Positions 8,414-31,014 of a DNA stretch of 64,000 bases are shown here, piece after piece. The DNA is from Exiguobacterium alkaliphilum 12/1. GTDB lineage: Bacteria; Bacillota; Bacilli; Exiguobacteriales; Exiguobacteriaceae. The position numbers and the translations under genes are program-made. The first letter of the stretch is position 1; each line of letters starts with the position of its first letter. Below the pieces are notes generated by a model. The model worked only from the letters and a program-made list of their open reading frames with translations. It was not told the origin of the DNA and did not search any database. The stretch covers positions 1 through 64,000 of the forward strand of contig NZ_JJMW01000071.1 in NCBI RefSeq assembly GCF_000714435.1, in the 5' to 3' direction.

Positions 8414-8512
8414 GCTTTCGGCTTTTTTCATTGGTGTAGCTTATTAACGGATGACAGTCGCCCTGATCATGCGTTACGATGGATGGGAATTTCGGGGAAA
8501 GGGTGCGGTCGT

Positions 8513-9568
8513 TTGGGTCAAGTTGTCAATATCTTCTTTATCAATATCAGTATCATCTATCTCGTCTTGTCGCTCACGCTCTACTTGATGCGACACGTGT
8601 TGCCGGTGCAAGTGGCGTCGCCGCTCGCTGTCCGGGTATGGTTCGGGCTCGCGATGGGGCTCGCGGCCGTCTTGTTGACCGTCAATTCGTTCTCGGTCGG
8701 GGAGGCGCGCATCGACCTCCGCATCATCCCGCTCGCCTTGGCGGCGGCGTACGCCGGACCGATCGGGGTCGCAGTCACGATTGGGCTGACACTTCTTGGT
8801 CGCTTCGGGCTCGACGGCATGACCGATCAGTTCATCCGCTCGTTCGGCACACTCGGCCTGTTCTTCGTCTTATCGCTCGTCTTGAATCGATTGTCACTGC
8901 GGCGCGGTCACTTATACTCGGCCTATCTCGTGTTTGGGGCCGTGCTCGTCTTATTCCGCATCGCCGGGAATATTCCGATGCACGCGTTCACGAATGTGTT
9001 CCTGCCGTATTTCGTCATCACATTCTTCGGCGGCTGGATGTGCTACTGGGTCGCGAAGCAAATCGAGACGCATTTGCGCATGTTCCGACTCCACACGCAG
9101 CGAGCGACCGTCGACGAGTTGACGGGGCTGCCGAACCGGTATATGACGCTCGAGCGGCTGAACGACGTCGAGGCGTCCGGTCTTCCGTGGGCACTCCTCG
9201 TCATCGACGTCGACCGGTTCAAACAGTTGAACGATACATATGGCCACCGGGCCGGGGATGCGGTGTTGCGTCGAATCGGGACGACGCTCCGCGACCATTG
9301 CCCGGAAGCTGGATTCGTCGGACGATACGGTGGGGAAGAGCTCGTCATGGTGACCGAGAACGCGCATGACGCCGAACAACTCGCCGAACGGCTCGTCCGT
9401 GCGGTCCGTGAGACGACGTATACGTTCGAAGGCCAACCGATTCCGATGACGATCTCGGTCGGGGTGTCGATTGCGAACGCAGAACCGGGGACGGTCGTCT
9501 TCGAGCGAGCCGATGCCGCACTTTATCAAGCGAAGGCGGATGGTCGCGACCAAGTGAAAATCGGGTAA
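8513..9568 (+). CDS. Membrane diguanylate cyclase (5TM sensor plus GGDEF)
   Basis: The product has five or six membrane helices over residues 1-180 in the pattern of a 5TMR-LYT sensor, then a GGDEF domain. The domain shows the entry motif DELTGLPNR, the metal and substrate segment VIDVDRFKQLNDTYGHRAGD, and the active-site variant GGEEL, which normally supports c-di-GMP synthesis. The RxxD product-inhibition site expected just before GRYGGEE is absent. The preferred start is the TTG at 8513, behind GGGGAAAGGGTG; an in-frame ATG at 8483 has no ribosome-binding site. Its place directly after csrA suggests a link to motility control, but it has its own terminator. Confidence 0.88.
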   Translation: MGQVVNIFFINISIIYLVLSLTLYLMRHVLPVQVASPLAVRVWFGLAMGLAAVLLTVNSFSVGEARIDLRIIPLALAAAYAGPIGVAVTIGLTLLGRFGLDGMTDQFIRSFGTLGLFFVLSLVLNRLSLRRGHLYSAYLVFGAVLVLFRIAGNIPMHAFTNVFLPYFVITFFGGWMCYWVAKQIETHLRMFRLHTQRATVDELTGLPNRYMTLERLNDVEASGLPWALLVIDVDRFKQLNDTYGHRAGDAVLRRIGTTLRDHCPEAGFVGRYGGEELVMVTENAHDAEQLAERLVRAVRETTYTFEGQPIPMTISVGVSIANAEPGTVVFERADAALYQAKADGRDQVKIG

Positions 9569-16252: not shown

Positions 16253-16417
16253 ATGTTAGAAGCGAAAATTAATTTCGTAGGAAGAGGGAATTGGAGTGAG
16301 ATTAAATTTCAGATAGATAATACTACTTACGAGATTTTATATGACATTGGATTTTCAATGAAAAATATTTGTTACACAAAAAATGGAGTCTCAACTTTGT
16401 TCACTCCTGAAATGTGA
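16253..16417 (+). pseudogene. N-terminal piece of a split metallo-beta-lactamase-fold protein
   Basis: This 54-codon frame starts 6 nt after the preceding gene, with AAGGATGATAACT before its ATG. Its product has the two opening beta strands typical of an MBL fold (KINFVGRGNWSEIKF and YEILYDIGFS). The histidine motif that should follow is found only in the next frame, one base back. The TGA stop at 16415-16417 overlaps the GTG at 16414, from which the larger frame may be re-initiated. It is best read as the missing N-terminus of the next entry. Confidence 0.6.
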
Positions 16418-17238
16418 TTGGTAATGAACCATTAGTAAATTATAAAGCGAATAAAAGCTCAGAAACTAAAAGACTTCTAATAATCAGTCACTGGGATTTA
16501 GATCATTATTCAGTCATACAGAGCTTCGCAGACGAAGAACTAGATTTATTCGATAAAGTAGTTGTACCAGAAGCACATACTTCAAAAACTTCCGTAGAAG
16601 TAATAAAATGGATGTCCAAAATATTAGGGGATAAATTATGTTGCATCAAACAGTCGCCCAGGGCTGCGGGGGGTGTGCATATCATAAAAGAACCACCTTT
16701 ATTTCCGGATTTGAGCAGTAGCAAAATCAATGTAGGCCTGTACAAAACTTCATATTCACAAAGTAGAAATAATGGAGGTCTTATCTTAATCATAAAGATA
16801 GCTAACACATTATTAATGTTTAGTGGTGATCATCATTATCTTAGTTTGAAAAGATGCTTAGAATACATAAATTTAGAGTCGATAGAAGAAATGGCTGTAG
16901 TTGTTCCTCATCACGGAGGTCTTGCTGGTTCATTGGATGATTTTCTTAATGAAATCCGATTAAATCAAATCAATACGACTTGGTATTTGTCAGCTGGGGT
17001 TGATCATGAATCGCTCTGTAAAATTTTGTATGAGGGAGAAGAGATTACCTTGAACAAATGGCATCCAAGAAAATCGGTTATGGACTCTATTAGGCTTCCT
17101 GTTTTGAAAACTCTTGATGTAAAAAGTAATACATATTTGAGCGAAGAAGGAAGACATTTAAAAATAAGAGTGAATCAAGATGGTGAAATAAAAAATTCTA
17201 AATTGTCATTAAACATATTAGAAAATACTCCGATATAG
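16414..17238 (+). CDS. Metallo-beta-lactamase-fold protein, main part (AT-rich island, second gene)
   Basis: The frame opens at a GTG overlapping the stop of the N-terminal piece. It contains the MBL metal motif SHWDLDHY (residues about 26-33; first His replaced by a SHxDxDH-like form), FSGDHHY near residue 137 and VPHHGG near 162. This is the pattern of ComEC/Rec2-like MBL hydrolases. The protein probably binds two metal ions and hydrolyses a phosphoester or a similar bond; the substrate is unknown. It is about 275 residues here and about 328 if joined to the upstream piece by a -1 shift. Base use is as AT-rich as the first island gene. The last nine codons contain the hag sigma-D promoter. 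Confidence 0.65.
   Translation: MIGNEPLVNYKANKSSETKRLLIISHWDLDHYSVIQSFADEELDLFDKVVVPEAHTSKTSVEVIKWMSKILGDKLCCIKQSPRAAGGVHIIKEPPLFPDLSSSKINVGLYKTSYSQSRNNGGLILIIKIANTLLMFSGDHHYLSLKRCLEYINLESIEEMAVVVPHHGGLAGSLDDFLNEIRLNQINTTWYLSAGVDHESLCKILYEGEEITLNKWHPRKSVMDSIRLPVLKTLDVKSNTYLSEEGRHLKIRVNQDGEIKNSKLSLNILENTPI
17210..17236 (+). promoter_or_regulatory. Sigma-D promoter of hag
   Basis: TAAA at 17210-17213 and TCCGATAT at 17229-17236 are 15 nt apart, a near-perfect SigD promoter, identical in form to the one inside comFC. The -10 element overlaps the stop codon of the MBL gene. Transcription would start near 17243, leaving a leader of about 115 nt. Confidence 0.88.
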
Positions 17239-17359: not shown

Positions 17360-18766
17360 ATGATTATTAACCACAACTTAAACGCGATGAATGCACACCG
17401 TAACATGTCGTTCAACACGACAAACACGGGTAAAGCGATGGAGAAGTTGTCTTCGGGTCTTCGTATCAACCGTGCTGGCGACGATGCTGCTGGTCTCGCA
17501 ATCTCTGAAAAAATGCGTGGACAAATTCGTGGTCTTGATCAAGCTTCCCGTAACGCTCAAGACGGTATCTCTCTCATCCAAACGGCTGAAGGCGCTTTAA
17601 ACGAAACGCACTCAATCCTTCAACGTATGCGTGAACTATCAGTGCAATCATCAAACGGATCTAACACAGATGCAGATCGAAACGAGATTCAGAAAGAAGT
17701 TTCTCAGTTAACGCAAGAAATTGATAGAATTCGAGATACAACAGAGTTCAATACAAAAAAACTTTTAAATGGAGATATGGCTGTTAAAGCTACGTCATCT
17801 ACTACTGGAATTCAAGGTGTAGAGTTGAAAAATGATAATGTCGTTGCTGGAAGTTACTCGATTACAGCTGCGGCAGCAGGCGATGTAACTCTTGGTGCAA
17901 CTGTAACTTCATCAACAATTTCTGGATTCAATGCGGATGCTGATATTGTTTTTGCAGCCGATGCAGATCTTGAAAACCTTGAACTAGGTGAGTATAAGTT
18001 AATCTCTTCAGATGCTGGTGCGGGAAACTTTAAATTGGAACTTCAAGATGCGAACGGTAAAGTGGTTGCTTCAAATGCTTCAGTTGCAGCAAATGCTGCA
18101 GCGACACTCTCTGGTGCGGGTGGAGTAACTTTCAAAGTTGCAGCTAACGCCGTAGCATCAACTGGTGAAGCAAACTTTAAGTTAGAAGCCACAACAGCAG
18201 CAGCTTTGACATTAACTGATGCTTCTGGAACTGTTGCGACCCTTGCTTCGGGATCGGTTTCAAAAAATGGAGTTTTTGAGGTTGGTAACTTCAAAATTGA
18301 ACTTAACTCAGAAGCATTTGCATCGAAAGCTGCTCTAGCATCTACAGCGTTGTTTGCTGGTACTGTTACTAATAAAGCAGAAACTTTCCAAATTGGAGCA
18401 AACGAAGGCCAAGTAACAAAACTTGGAATCAGTGATATGAGTGCCTCTAGTTTAGGAATTAATGCTCTTGATTTAACGTCAGCATCTTCTGCTCAAGTAG
18501 CAATCTCAAAAATCAATACTGCAATTGAAAAAGTGTCTGGGGAGCGTTCGAAATTAGGTGCAAACCAAAACCGTCTCGAGCACACAATCAACAACTTGAA
18601 CGTTGGAGCTGAAAACCTTCAAGCTGCAGAATCACGTGTACGTGACGTAGACATGGCTAAAGAGATGATGAACTTCACGAAGAACAACATCCTCAACCAA
18701 GCTGCGCAAGCAATGATGGCTCAATCTCAATCACAACCCCAAGCAGTTCTACAACTTCTTCGGTAA
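17360..18766 (+). CDS. hag: Hag, major flagellin (reading frame of the unspliced mRNA; exon 1 is 17360-18721)
   Basis: Flagellin is the exported filament subunit. Residues 1-135 are the conserved D0/D1 helices ([18 protein letters not shown], then [17 protein letters not shown]). Residues 370-454 are the matching C-terminal helices. The middle (about 140-365) is long, rich in alanine, serine and threonine, AT-richer in codons and unlike the 304-residue B. subtilis protein. Exon 1 ends after codon 454 (GCT at 18719-18721). Read straight through, 14 further codons inside a group I intron give [14 protein letters not shown] and a stop at 18764. After splicing, codon 455 onward comes from 19118-19162 and gives [14 protein letters not shown]. 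Both products have 468 residues. FliS and FliW are expected binding partners. Confidence 0.95.
18722..18766 (+). other. Intron-encoded alternative flagellin C-terminus (in the P1 loop)
   Basis: The first 45 nt of the intron continue the hag frame without a break for 14 codons and stop with TAA. The peptide matches the exon 2 peptide at 11 of 14 positions and has the same length; the differences are S/A, Q/N and S/Q at residues 456-458. Of the 11 shared residues, 8 use a different codon. The sequence therefore preserves the protein, not the DNA. Apart from the CAATC at its 5' end, which extends P1, it lies in the P1 loop and is not needed for the ribozyme core. Confidence 0.85.
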
Positions 18767-19117
18767 TGATTGACGGGCGTCTTATCTGGTAACGGATAGG
18801 AGTATAACTGGGTGAATTGCTGGGACTCCTTAGAGCCCTCCTTACGACAACGTGACTGGAAACGGTGAGCGTGAACGTTTTGAAAAAAGGAAGGGATTGG
18901 ACAATCAGCAGCCAAGCATCTGTCAGGAAACTGTGATGAAGGTTCAACGACTAGGATGAACGACCTACCGACATAATGTCCATGGTTATGAGATCCGTAC
19001 CTCGACAACGGCGAGGGAAGTGCCCAGCCCCTATTTTACAATAATAATGATTTTTATATTGATATTGTAAAAGGGTGAAGATATAGTCTAGACCATATTG
19101 AAAAATATGGGCATCTG
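18722..19117 (+). ncRNA. Group I self-splicing intron in hag (396 nt)
   Basis: The core helices can be read directly. P1 is GATGGCT (18715-18721, exon) with GGGCGTC (18775-18781), a U-G pair at the splice site and one G-G mismatch, extended by CAATC/GATTG. P2 is TTATC/GATAG (18782-18799). P3 is ATAACT (18804)/GGTTAT (18984). P4 is TTGCTG (18817)/CAGCAG (18906). P6 spans 18917-18938, P7 is GACTA (18949)/TAGTC (19084), P8 is CCTCG (19000)/CGAGG (19012) and P9 is CCATAT (19093)/ATATGG (19105). The intron ends in the required G at 19117. Sequence between P7 and P3' suggests P7.1/P7.2, as in subgroup IA. No endonuclease gene lies inside. An AT-rich hairpin, TTTTACAATA/TATTGTAAAA, lies near 19033-19072. 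Group I introns are known in flagellin genes of thermophilic Bacillus and Geobacillus. Confidence 0.92.
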
Positions 19118-19162
19118 CAAGCAAATCAGCAGCCACAAGCTGTGCTTCAATTGCTCCGTTAA
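19118..19162 (+). CDS. hag: hag exon 2
   Basis: The 14 codons [14 protein letters not shown] plus TAA form the canonical Bacillus-type flagellin C-terminus, which FliS and the filament core need. It joins exon 1 between codons (phase 0), giving ...[17 protein letters not shown]. It has no start codon or ribosome-binding site of its own, so it can be translated only after splicing. CAA at its start can pair with TTG at 18770-18772 as P10. Confidence 0.88.
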   Translation, partial: QANQQPQAVLQLLR

Positions 19163-19193
19163 TATAGCAATTGATTATTTAAAAGTTATACTA

Positions 19194-19225
19194 AAAACCG
19201 TGAAGCTTATGCTTCACGGTTTTTG
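19194..19225. terminator. Bidirectional terminator between hag and the endonuclease gene
   Basis: AAACCGTGAAGC pairs with GCTTCACGGTTT across TTAT, with A- and T-runs on the flanks. It overlaps the last codons of the leftward endonuclease gene. Confidence 0.88.
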
Positions 19226-20042
19226 ACGTCTTGCCATTTATAAACGACCGACCAATACGTACGGTTCAACCGTCGGGCAATCTCTTTATCCGTCACGCGC
19301 TGCTGTTTCCATTTGATGAGTAAAGCGATATCCTCGTCACTATACGGCCTAGCGGGGACGGAGACGCGAATCGTGTAGTCCGGGTGTGATTGCTTATACA
19401 GCTCGATTTCGTTCTTCAGACGTGTTTCCCATGACAGTTTATAAGTGAATTCTCGTAGTTCGGCGATATATGGCTCGAGTAAATCCAAAATGTCGAACGT
19501 GTCAGTCACTTTCGTCATTTTTAAATAACAGCCTGTACCGCTCGGCGTGCCCGTTGTTCGCACATTGATGTCATAACGTGCTTTCATCCAGATGGCTAAC
19601 TGTTTCAACTGTTGTCTCGAGAAGGCTTGTAAGTAGAAAGCGATATGCGGGGTAAATTGAATCTCTTTCTTGTTGTGATTGAATCGTTTACTGAGGAGGA
19701 GTGAGCCATCGTCCAAATAGAGTGTGAGCAGACATGAAGGATGATGAATGTCTTCAAGCAACTCGAACGGAATGTGTTTCTTATTGTCCGGATAAAAATG
19801 AGGGAAGAGTTTCGTCATCAACGGAATGGAGCGCGACACAAGATTGTTTCCTCGTAAATACAATATGTCAGAGAGCTTTTTTGCTTCCATTGGCGATAAC
19901 TTAACTGGCCCATCCCAAAATGCTCCCGGTAACTGTTGTTTACACGTCGATCATATGGATAGCACTTCGTGATTTCACCATCCCCTAAAATACTAGCGAC
20001 TAAAATGGCTACCTGTTCCTCGGATAGTCCTTCCCAGTCCAT
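19207..20042 (-). pseudogene. LAGLIDADG homing endonuclease, frameshifted
   Basis: Two overlapping leftward frames together encode one LAGLIDADG protein. The 5' frame (from ATG 20042, behind AAGGGGAGAAG) has the first motif, LVASILGDGEI. The 3' frame (to 19207) has the second, LLTLYLDDGSLL, and ends in a helix-turn-helix tail (YSDEDIALLIKW ... DKEIARRLNRTYWSVV). They are joined by a -1 shift at a run of six A (19877-19882, T on the plus strand). Seven A would restore a continuous protein of about 278 residues. Such enzymes cut an intronless target and promote intron copying. It lies outside the hag intron, on the opposite strand, 45 nt after exon 2. Its base use is less GC-rich than that of the neighbours. 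Confidence 0.82.
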
Positions 20043-20181
20043 CTCACTTCTCCCCTTTACGTAGTAATCTCCTTACAGAAATCATTCCCGATTTATCGGA
20101 ATGACCTGATTCAATAATTCGTCAGCCCATCTCAAGTTTTTGATTGACACGTCGATACATAGGAAGAGAGAAGGTGTTTAT

Positions 20182-20409
20182 ATGGGCAAGGATTTGATAG
20201 AAGAGCTGGAGGTCGTCTACACCGAACAAAAGCGATTAGACGAACTAGAAGACTTATTGCGGACGATGCGGTCCATCGCGATTGAAGCGGCGACTTGCGG
20301 AGATAAAAGACGAGTGCAGTTACAGGAACAATTTCATGATTTACAAGCCCGGGTCACCTATTTAAAAGCAAAGAAACGAGAACCATTTCGTCAAAGCACT
20401 ACAAATTGA
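20182..20409 (+). CDS. Small coiled-coil protein of unknown function
   Basis: Translation most likely starts at ATG 20182, behind GAGAAGGTG, giving 75 residues. The product is charged and helical throughout (LIEELEVVYTEQKRLDELED), typical of a short coiled coil. Its place just before flaG-fliD suggests a flagellar chaperone or regulator of the FlgN/FliT size class, but there is no clear family match. Confidence 0.55.
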   Translation: MGKDLIEELEVVYTEQKRLDELEDLLRTMRSIAIEAATCGDKRRVQLQEQFHDLQARVTYLKAKKREPFRQSTTN

Positions 20410-20463: not shown

Positions 20464-20820
20464 ATGAACCCGACCATTTCTGAAGTCCGGCTTCACCTAC
20501 CTTCTTCCGTCTTGCCGTATGAACAAACGAAAAACGTGTTCGTCGAAGCGAATCAAGCGAAACTCGCCGACGAAGGCATCGTCATTCTGCCGACGCCTCA
20601 ACACGTCACAAAGTTAGAGGCGGCTGTCGAGAAGGCGAACTTGGTACTCGAGCAACAACGTACCGGCTTGAAGTTCATGAAACATGAAAAACTGAACGAC
20701 TATTATATTCAAATCGTGGATACGAACAATGAAGTCATCCGCGAAATCCCAAGCAAGAAGTCACTCGACTTTTTCGCCGCGTTCATGGAGTTCAACCGAT
20801 TGTTCGATGAACGCGTGTAA
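20464..20820 (+). CDS. flaG: FlaG-family flagellar protein (YvyC-like)
   Basis: The 118-residue protein has the FlaG C-terminal domain: LKFMKHEKLNDYYIQIVDTN followed by EVIREIPSKKSLDFFAAFMEF, with the conserved VVDxxTxEVIRQIPxE-like core. FlaG proteins are thought to influence filament length, and B. subtilis yvyC holds the same place before fliD. AGAGGAGTAGACGCAA precedes the ATG. The next gene starts 12 nt after the stop. Confidence 0.9.
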   Translation: MNPTISEVRLHLPSSVLPYEQTKNVFVEANQAKLADEGIVILPTPQHVTKLEAAVEKANLVLEQQRTGLKFMKHEKLNDYYIQIVDTNNEVIREIPSKKSLDFFAAFMEFNRLFDERV

Positions 20821-20832
20821 AGGAGGCCAACC

Positions 20833-22539
20833 ATGACATCACCAATCCGATTCGGCGGACTCGCCAGTGGGATCGATACCGATACAATTATTAAACAATT
20901 GATGCAAGTCGAGCGTGTCCCGGTCGACAAGCTTGAGCAAAAGAAGCAAGTGACTGAATGGAAACGTGACGCATACCGTGAAATTAACCGCTCGCTCATG
21001 TCGCTCCGTAACAGTGCCGTCGATTTGATGTTCAGCCGGAACTTCTATGCGAAGACGGCGAGTTCCTCCGACGCTTCAAAAATCAGTGTCACGGCCGGGC
21101 CGTCTAGCGGGAACAGTGCGCTTCGAATTGACTCGGTGACGCAACTCGCGACATCGGCGACGACAATCTTAAGTGCGACCGATCAGAATGGTGCAAAATT
21201 AACAGGCGCAACGAAACTTTCGGATATGAATGGTTTTGTGGCTGGTCAAAAGCGAGTCATTCAAGAGACGGCCGGAACGGAGATGACGTTGCCGAAAGAT
21301 TTAGACTTCACGAATGTCACACTGAAAAACGCTGCCGGACAAACGCTTAATCCAACCGATTTTAGTTATGACGCGTCGACGGGAAAACTTACTGCAACAA
21401 ATACGACTGCTTACCCTGACGGTGTCATCCCTCAAGGTGTGTCGGCGGAGTTCATTTCCGGCACCGGCTTTGAGATTCAATATAAGTCATCCACTACTGG
21501 CACATACAAGAAAATTGAGCTCGGTGCAAATGCGACTGTGCAAGAATTCGTATCGAAATTAAATGAAAAAGAAACGGGCTTATCCGCCTTCTTCGAGTCA
21601 TCGACGGGGAAAATCTCACTGTCGACAAAAGATACGGGCGCAACCGCGACGCTCGACTTTGATTTAGGATTCAAATCAGCCTTCGCGATAGGTGAGACGA
21701 ACCCTGTCGGTCAAAACGCTCAATTCAAAGTGAACGGGATTGATGTAGAACGCGCGACAAATACTGTCACGATTGACAACATGACGCTCACGTTGAAGTC
21801 GAGGTTCCCGACACCCGATAATCCTACAGCCGGACCTGTCACCCTCTCGGCCGCGACCGACACCCAAAAAATCTTCGACAACATTAAAGGTTTCGTCGAT
21901 AAATACAATGAGACGATCGACCTGATGAACAAGAAAGTGCGAGAAGAACGTTTCCGTTCATTCGCACCGCTCACGAAAGCCCAACGTGACGAACTGTCAG
22001 AAGATGAGATCAAGAAGTGGGAAGAAAAAGCGATGAGCGGGATGCTCAAAGGCGACACGATTTTACGTAGCGCCATGGACTCGCTCCGTGGCAAATGGTC
22101 GGGCACGTCTTCGGCGACGAACGACGCTGAGATGCGCCAACTGTTCCAAATCGGCCTCTCGACCGGCGCCGACTTCACGAACGGTGGTAAGATTGAGCTA
22201 AATGAAGAAAAGCTCAAAGCCGCCATCGAGAAAGACCCGGAGCAAGTGTATCAACTGTTCACGAACGCGGAGAGCGGACTGCTCCCGCAAATCCGTGACG
22301 CAGCGGCCGCATCGCGGTCGAACATCACCCGGATCGCCGGGGCGGACGGGGCCGGTGCCCCGACGTACTCGATGGGCCGTGAGATGACACAAATCGATAC
22401 CCGCATCCAACGATTGAACGCACTGCTCGTCGATAAAGAGAACGCCTACTACCGTCGCTTCGCGGCGATGGAGACGGCGATGAACCAGGCGAACTCGCAA
22501 GCCGCCTCACTGCAACAGTTTTTAGGCGGAGGCATGTAA
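20833..22539 (+). CDS. fliD: FliD, filament cap (HAP2)
   Basis: FliD forms the cap under which flagellin subunits fold at the tip. The N-terminus (RFGGLASGIDTDTIIKQLMQVERVP) and the C-terminal domain (ending RFAAMETAMNQANSQAASLQQFL) are the two conserved FliD domains, about residues 5-105 and 290-560. The protein has 568 residues, longer than the 498 or so of B. subtilis. Codons in the middle third, about 21170-21750, are AT-richer than the ends, in line with a surface-exposed variable domain. GGAGG lies 7 nt before the ATG. Confidence 0.95.
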   Translation: MTSPIRFGGLASGIDTDTIIKQLMQVERVPVDKLEQKKQVTEWKRDAYREINRSLMSLRNSAVDLMFSRNFYAKTASSSDASKISVTAGPSSGNSALRIDSVTQLATSATTILSATDQNGAKLTGATKLSDMNGFVAGQKRVIQETAGTEMTLPKDLDFTNVTLKNAAGQTLNPTDFSYDASTGKLTATNTTAYPDGVIPQGVSAEFISGTGFEIQYKSSTTGTYKKIELGANATVQEFVSKLNEKETGLSAFFESSTGKISLSTKDTGATATLDFDLGFKSAFAIGETNPVGQNAQFKVNGIDVERATNTVTIDNMTLTLKSRFPTPDNPTAGPVTLSAATDTQKIFDNIKGFVDKYNETIDLMNKKVREERFRSFAPLTKAQRDELSEDEIKKWEEKAMSGMLKGDTILRSAMDSLRGKWSGTSSATNDAEMRQLFQIGLSTGADFTNGGKIELNEEKLKAAIEKDPEQVYQLFTNAESGLLPQIRDAAAASRSNITRIAGADGAGAPTYSMGREMTQIDTRIQRLNALLVDKENAYYRRFAAMETAMNQANSQAASLQQFLGGGM

Positions 22540-30504: not shown

Positions 30505-30775
30505 ACGCTGCACCATCCTCCTCATATTGGATTTTCAGGATCGGCTAAATGTTAGCGGCACAAACCTAAATCATCTCTTCCATGATATATCACAAAAAAT
30601 GTAAACTCAATATGACAATATGAAAAGTAGGGAAATATAATTCCAATGTAAGCCAAAAAGTAAATCGTTTGCAAAATATTGAGAAAGTGTTTGTCACGCC
30701 ATCCATAAGGTGGTAAGATTACCGGTAGAGGGAAAGCCTCTGTATTCTTCAATGGTGAAAGGAATGGATTTACAC

Positions 30776-30973
30776 ATGGTAGGTAAAGTAAAATGGTTTA
30801 ACTCAGAAAAAGGTTTTGGATTCATCGAAGTAGAAGGCGGCAAAGACGTGTTCGTACACTTCTCAGCAATCCAAACTGACGGCTACAAATCACTTGACGA
30901 AGGTCAAGAGGTAGAGTTTGAAATCGTTGATGGCGAGCGTGGCCCACAAGCGGCTAACGTTGTAAAATTATAA
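30776..30973 (+). CDS. Cold-shock protein (CspB/CspA family)
   Basis: The 65-residue protein has the complete cold-shock domain with both RNA-binding motifs (KGFGFIE and VFVHFSAI). It acts as an RNA chaperone. ATG 30776 is set by alignment to the family; AAAGGA lies 12 nt upstream. The longer open frame from 30710 is a leader without homology. The untranslated leader is AT-rich, which is common for cold-shock mRNAs. A terminator follows. Confidence 0.95.
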
Positions 30974-30980
30974 TTTCAAA

Positions 30981-31014
30981 CTGAGCCGGCTCTCGCGTAG
31001 AGCCGGCTTTTTTG
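30981..31014 (+). terminator. Intrinsic terminator
   Basis: GAGCCGGCTCT pairs with AGAGCCGGCTT across CGCGT, followed by TTTTTG. Confidence 0.92.

Follow-up and report, generated by a model that had tools for sequence, protein, structure and literature searches.

Collaborative or trans homing has been described in phages (PMC3984707, PMC2988022, PMC10448857), where the known cases include the psbA intron of a cyanophage with its free-standing enzyme, T3-like phages, and T4 mobE with the nrdB intron. Group I introns have also been described in flagellin genes of thermophilic Bacillus and Geobacillus (Hayakawa and Ishizuka 2009, 2012, as cited in PMC3984707 and PMC4853749); flagellin introns, including those of Geobacillus relatives, are reported to be self-splicing (cited in PMC3984707), and temperature dependence of their splicing has been published (cited in PMC3984707 and PMC4853749). 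In most group I introns, an in-frame stop codon follows directly after the 5' junction (PMC3073962). Here we analyze a flagellin (hag) locus within a 64,000-nucleotide stretch of Exiguobacterium alkaliphilum 12/1 (contig NZ_JJMW01000071.1, positions 1 to 64,000; henceforth the window), which is likely, judging from comparison with related genomes, to be a mobile locus of two parts, an intron at insertion site B and a free-standing endonuclease, in which the enzyme has probably been lost recently (Table 1).

Table 1. Features of the hag locus, numbered by position in the window.
Feature	Position	Strand	Basis
hag exon 1 (flagellin)	17360..18721	+	Pfam Flagellin_N and Flagellin_C on read-through ORF 17360-18766
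Group I intron, site B (AMMA|QANQQ)	18722..19117	+	Rfam Intron_gpI, 85.9 bits; splicing predicted
Spare flagellin tail, 14 residues and stop	18722..18766	+	P1 loop, in frame with exon 1; translation
Internal guide GGGC	18775..18778	+	Pairs with GCU at the end of exon 1 and with the intron's first base; RNA fold, covariation
hag exon 2, canonical 14-residue tail and stop	19118..19162	+	Pooled pS 0.69, pN 0.06 over relatives
Inverted repeat between hag and enzyme gene	19193..19224	unstranded	Opposite-strand self-match, 94% of 32 nt
Broken LAGLIDADG endonuclease gene, subfamily B	19207..20042	-	ORFs, Pfam LAGLIDADG_2, intact orthologues
One-base loss, run of six A on gene strand	19877..19882	-	Alignment with sisters
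flaG and fliD, downstream flank	20464..22539	+	Position, homologues in relatives

By its sequence, the element interrupting hag is a real group I intron, with a conserved core, a U-G pair in P1 (U18721-G18776 at the 5' splice site of the predicted RNA fold) and a terminal G (G19117). An earlier note on this DNA, made from the letters alone, had placed the splice junctions at 18721/18722 and 19117/19118, and both positions agree with the P1 pairing and with its covariation across relatives (GCT with GGGC, TCT with GGGA). The alternative of placing the 5' splice site after the spare tail, so that the tail belonged to exon 1, was rejected on two grounds, the coding selection on exon 2 and the covariation of P1 at 18721. 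The same note was also right that the intron lacks an endonuclease gene (no ORF of that size lies within the Rfam-supported intron) and that one is situated past exon 2 on the opposite strand, where it occupies the minus strand 44 nt after the stop codon ending at 19162. Collaborative homing is characterized by this arrangement, in which the intron itself lacks an endonuclease gene and a free-standing one lies close by. The inverted repeat overlaps the 3' end of the enzyme gene and partly fills the 44-nt spacer, and is probably a terminator serving both hag and the enzyme gene. Between the enzyme gene and flaG there is a small ORF of 89 aa (20140-20409), with relatives in genomes G014, G011, G013 and G002 (52-67%, but 40% in G002). 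Elsewhere in the window, positions 30626-31013 match the Rfam cspA thermoregulator just over the cut-off (79 vs 78 bits).

A feature that is absent from the earlier note occupies the first 45 nt of the intron, which encode a second flagellin C-terminus and stop codon of the same length as the tail encoded by exon 2. Such a 14-codon spare tail with its stop is present in 51 of 53 distinct site-B introns. Pooled over these 51 distinct relatives, its pS of 0.71 and pN of 0.15 indicate purifying selection, and the pS of 0.81 between the spare tail and its own exon 2 shows that synonymous changes have arisen in each copy independently. Variability within the spare tail is mostly confined to third codon positions (1.35 bits vs 0.58 and 0.25), which argues against its being a mere RNA element. 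Both tails thus look translated, which would mean that spliced and unspliced messages are both required; and because the spare tail is so widespread and under purifying selection, full-length flagellin is probably made from unspliced hag mRNA as well. We lean, with some reserve, towards viewing the site-B intron as one that carries its own replacement tail, such that splicing would pick between two complete flagellins, ribosomes entering the P1 loop would favor the unspliced form, and intron and site-matched endonuclease together would make a near-harmless homing pair on the chromosome. The two site-B introns without a spare tail (loci L172 and L223) have the short readings QFEQVA and QLLVA instead, and their enzymes share one small clade with the enzyme of L292. 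Read-through into site-A introns of different genera (L146, L161, L165, L177) stops after similar short peptides (YALAA, YAEAA, YVLAAA).

Relatives of the enzyme were sought in 399 Bacilli genomes (the class sample), with strong matches defined by E below 1e-60 and introns screened with Rfam, and in an added sample of 171 genomes of one family. Strong matches occurred in 27 of the 399 genomes and lay, in all 27, just beyond hag in convergent orientation. Introns interrupt hag at two sites, that of the window (B) and another, site A (DVD|MAKEMM), about 25 codons upstream. A second, distant enzyme subfamily (A) was found through the site-A loci and then searched for in both samples; subfamilies A and B form separate clades. 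The earlier note had suggested looking for co-occurrence of intron and endonuclease in relatives, and this is pronounced: enzyme B is present in 21 of the 41 genomes with a site-B intron vs 6 of the 358 without (p about 1e-18, genomes treated as unrelated). No trace of enzyme B accompanies about 16 of the 41 site-B introns in the class sample, as would be expected from decay after fixation, although a loose link between intron and enzyme would account for it too. Conversely, five Exiguobacterium genomes (G002, G005, G009, G010, G018) have, next to an intronless hag, a B enzyme that has diverged (about 40% identity), and further enzyme loci without a hag intron, some of them remnants only, occur in G360, G410, G433 and G316; these genomes may have lost the intron, or the enzyme may home without it. 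A gene found in relatives without the intron and far from hag was to have counted against collaborative homing, and the first half of this holds, in that enzymes do adjoin intronless hag, but among strong matches none lies far from hag. A divergent enzyme relative in G202, with no flagellin close to it, was left out, and in G120 another contig carries a fragment of an A enzyme at its end. Tandem hag copies are present at the locus in G005, G015, G001, G003, G509 and G323 (L023, L046, L252, L055, L282 and L201, respectively), with each of the two copies in G509 carrying a site-A intron.

The two enzyme subfamilies are partitioned according to intron site. Where a locus had one intron and a separate enzyme gene, remnants being counted, the enzyme was B at site B in 19 genomes (7 genera) and A at site A in 6 genomes (3 genera), and no pairing was crossed (Fisher test, 5.6e-6 by genome, treating genomes as unrelated, and 0.008 by genus). 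The family sample provides the cleaner test, because the pattern was first noticed in the class sample; on its own it yielded three B-B and three A-A single-intron loci and none that were crossed. Loci with introns at both sites have either enzyme alone, the two together, or a single protein in which A and B are fused. Eight fused A-B ORFs of about 590-690 codons lie beside hag (L146:2698-4608, L151:2246-4204, L174, L199, L225, L286, L287 and L285), and both catalytic acids of the A half have been lost from seven of the eight proteins, the exception being that of G400, which has a site-A intron only.

Within the genus, intron plus enzyme requires 5 changes on the UvrA tree for the 6 genomes that possess it (shuffled mean 4.2), and is by this measure scattered over the species tree. 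As evident from a comparison of G011 and G014, the segment bounded by the starts of the intron and of the enzyme gene exceeds 92% identity over most of its length (85-88% in the lowest 75-nt windows), whereas the flanks, consisting of the variable upstream portion of hag and much of the downstream spacer, are 60-70% identical; enzyme pS between these genomes is 0.16, vs 0.35 for UvrA. Such a shared tract is seen in this one species pair; in most other pairs enzyme pS is close to saturation, as if their histories were older and separate, and divergence is too great for joint movement of intron and enzyme to be read from them.

The larger piece of the window gene matches Pfam LAGLIDADG_2 (PF03161) at 35.9 bits (cut-off 25), and the gene contains the LAGLIDADG motifs SILGDGE and LYLDDGS. 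An AlphaFold2 model of an intact sister protein (pLDDT 90.9) has I-SceI and I-WcaI as its best Foldseek matches (E 1.9e-9 and 2.8e-8), there is a profile match to I-SceI (E about 1e-7), and both catalytic acids are conserved in the intact sister enzymes. Profile, motifs and modeled fold thus identify the enzyme as a putative I-SceI-like homing endonuclease of the LAGLIDADG_2 family, for which cleavage is predicted. Like I-SceI and I-WcaI, it would be a two-motif monomer, but it shares only ~20% identity with them, is free-standing, and has an additional C-terminal helical domain, probably a helix-turn-helix. The phage and plasmid collections searched for this enzyme contained no match, and viral contigs held only relatives at 24-35% identity, such that a phage or plasmid origin was rejected.

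In the window, the gene is represented by two ORFs on the minus strand, one of 74 aa (20042-19818) and one of 227 aa (19890-19207). Both the 54 codons ahead of the break and the remainder align collinearly with intact 278-residue proteins from sister genomes, by which the ORFs are two parts of one 278-codon gene, divided by a single-base shift at the A-run as the earlier note had read it. In place of the window's AAAAAA, the closest intact copies show AACAAAA, and the run therefore arose by loss of one base and is no conserved slippery site. Of the three explanations that had been offered for the break, rescue by slippage is disfavored by sisters that lack the A-run, sequencing error is possible, and decay is the most likely. 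Intact homologues adjoin the same intron in four congeners (G006, G011, G013, G014), and G001 has the intron with an enzyme remnant. Exiguobacterium sp. TNDT2 and E. qingdaonense are among the sisters whose enzyme is naturally intact. Comparison with congeners reveals strong purifying selection on the enzyme (dN 0.06 and dS 0.66 between the larger window piece and G014); given this selection and the four intact congeners, the break must be either recent or a sequencing error, and a recent inactivation appears most likely.

That the break is an error of sequencing or assembly, and the gene intact in this strain, is possible but doubtful. The gene pieces still show a dN/dS of ~0.1, and discrepancies in base count do exist in this assembly, as the A-run at 16413 differs between duplicate contigs: the window is without one A that contig C25 has, which breaks the window ORF at 16414-17238, whereas in C25 this ORF is unbroken and extends further (329 residues from stop to stop; we read its HWDLDH motif as that of a metallo-beta-lactamase-like gene). 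However, both contigs give the same bases at 19877-19882, the sister-like sequence there has no long homopolymer, and, of 53 genes compared with G006, the endonuclease alone shows a clear frameshift inside the gene, apart from one close to a C-terminus (a possible second frameshift at ~9187 in 8483-9568). The identical break in C25 is no independent evidence, since the base at 16413 is all that separates C25 from the window over 64 kb. Unless the break is a sequencing error, the frameshifted copy provides no active endonuclease, and the pair in the window is inactive.

Collaborative homing, as the earlier note had proposed for this locus, is supported by comparison among genomes (site matching, confinement to hag, phylogenetic scatter, the shared tract, and purifying selection), with cleavage at the intron site being predicted, indirectly, from the match of enzyme subfamily to intron site. 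The free-standing LAGLIDADG endonuclease would cut intronless hag at site B, donor-templated repair would copy the intron, exon 2 and the endonuclease gene together in a joint conversion, and the inserted intron, by splitting site B, would render the allele resistant. After establishment of the intron, the window copy would recently have lost its enzyme through deletion of a single base, and the intron would have been retained because it splices and, we infer, because the in-frame second tail in its P1 loop lets the unspliced message give a complete flagellin.

Other roles for the enzyme can be weighed against the same evidence. Some LAGLIDADG proteins are maturases, and the bI3 maturase is among the weaker fold matches; were this enzyme to aid splicing of the flagellin intron, the matching of enzyme and intron site could reflect RNA binding. 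We regard this as quite improbable, because genus g2 has enzyme-free introns: seven of its genomes keep the site-B intron (77-84 bits) with no enzyme in the genome, and g2 introns with an enzyme score alike (75-83 bits). The reported self-splicing of flagellin introns (cited in PMC3984707), the conservation of both catalytic acids, and the occurrence of the enzyme beside intronless hag also argue against a maturase. This last observation, made in the five Exiguobacterium genomes, G360 and G410, would suit an enzyme that homes alone by cutting near the end of hag, with the intron as a passenger or chance neighbor, but such intronless homing is unlikely in that the subfamily matches the intron site in every single-intron locus and intron and enzyme lie in one shared tract. 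It is highly improbable that the enzyme has been retained as a driver of antigenic variation, through recombination between tandem flagellin genes, as tandem hag genes, present in several enzyme-bearing genomes such as G005 and G509, are all that speaks for it, and many enzyme-bearing loci have a single hag copy in the stretch examined.

We found no published description in the openly accessible literature searched of a flagellin-associated endonuclease, of the flagellin pair, or of site-matched enzymes, nor of a spare tail within an intron, although the two original flagellin-intron papers lie outside that scope and priority for the tail is uncertain. The spare tail changes how flagellin introns are to be read, in that an unspliced message is probably no dead product; it is relevant to the regulation of motility by temperature that has been proposed (cited in PMC4853749) and to the tolerance of bacterial protein-coding genes for introns. 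Whereas the stop codon of typical group I introns is at the junction (PMC3073962), that of most site-B flagellin introns closes a replacement tail. The Geobacillus and Parageobacillus flagellin introns found here occupy the same site B and carry the spare tail; the passages citing the published Bacillus and Geobacillus introns mention neither a neighboring enzyme nor such a tail.

The collaborative homing cases that we found described are those of phages, and the flagellin loci add a family of related, probable cases from bacterial chromosomes. Their two sites, two matching enzyme lineages, fused enzymes and many stages of decay open the homing model to testing both comparatively and at the bench. 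Phage systems and the flagellin pair have in common an endonuclease-free group I intron and a free-standing, site-matched endonuclease beside the interrupted gene. Unlike the phage cases, the proposed flagellin homing pair resides on a bacterial chromosome, in a flagellin gene and with a LAGLIDADG enzyme, and comprises two intron sites, two matching enzyme lineages, and enzymes fused into one protein.
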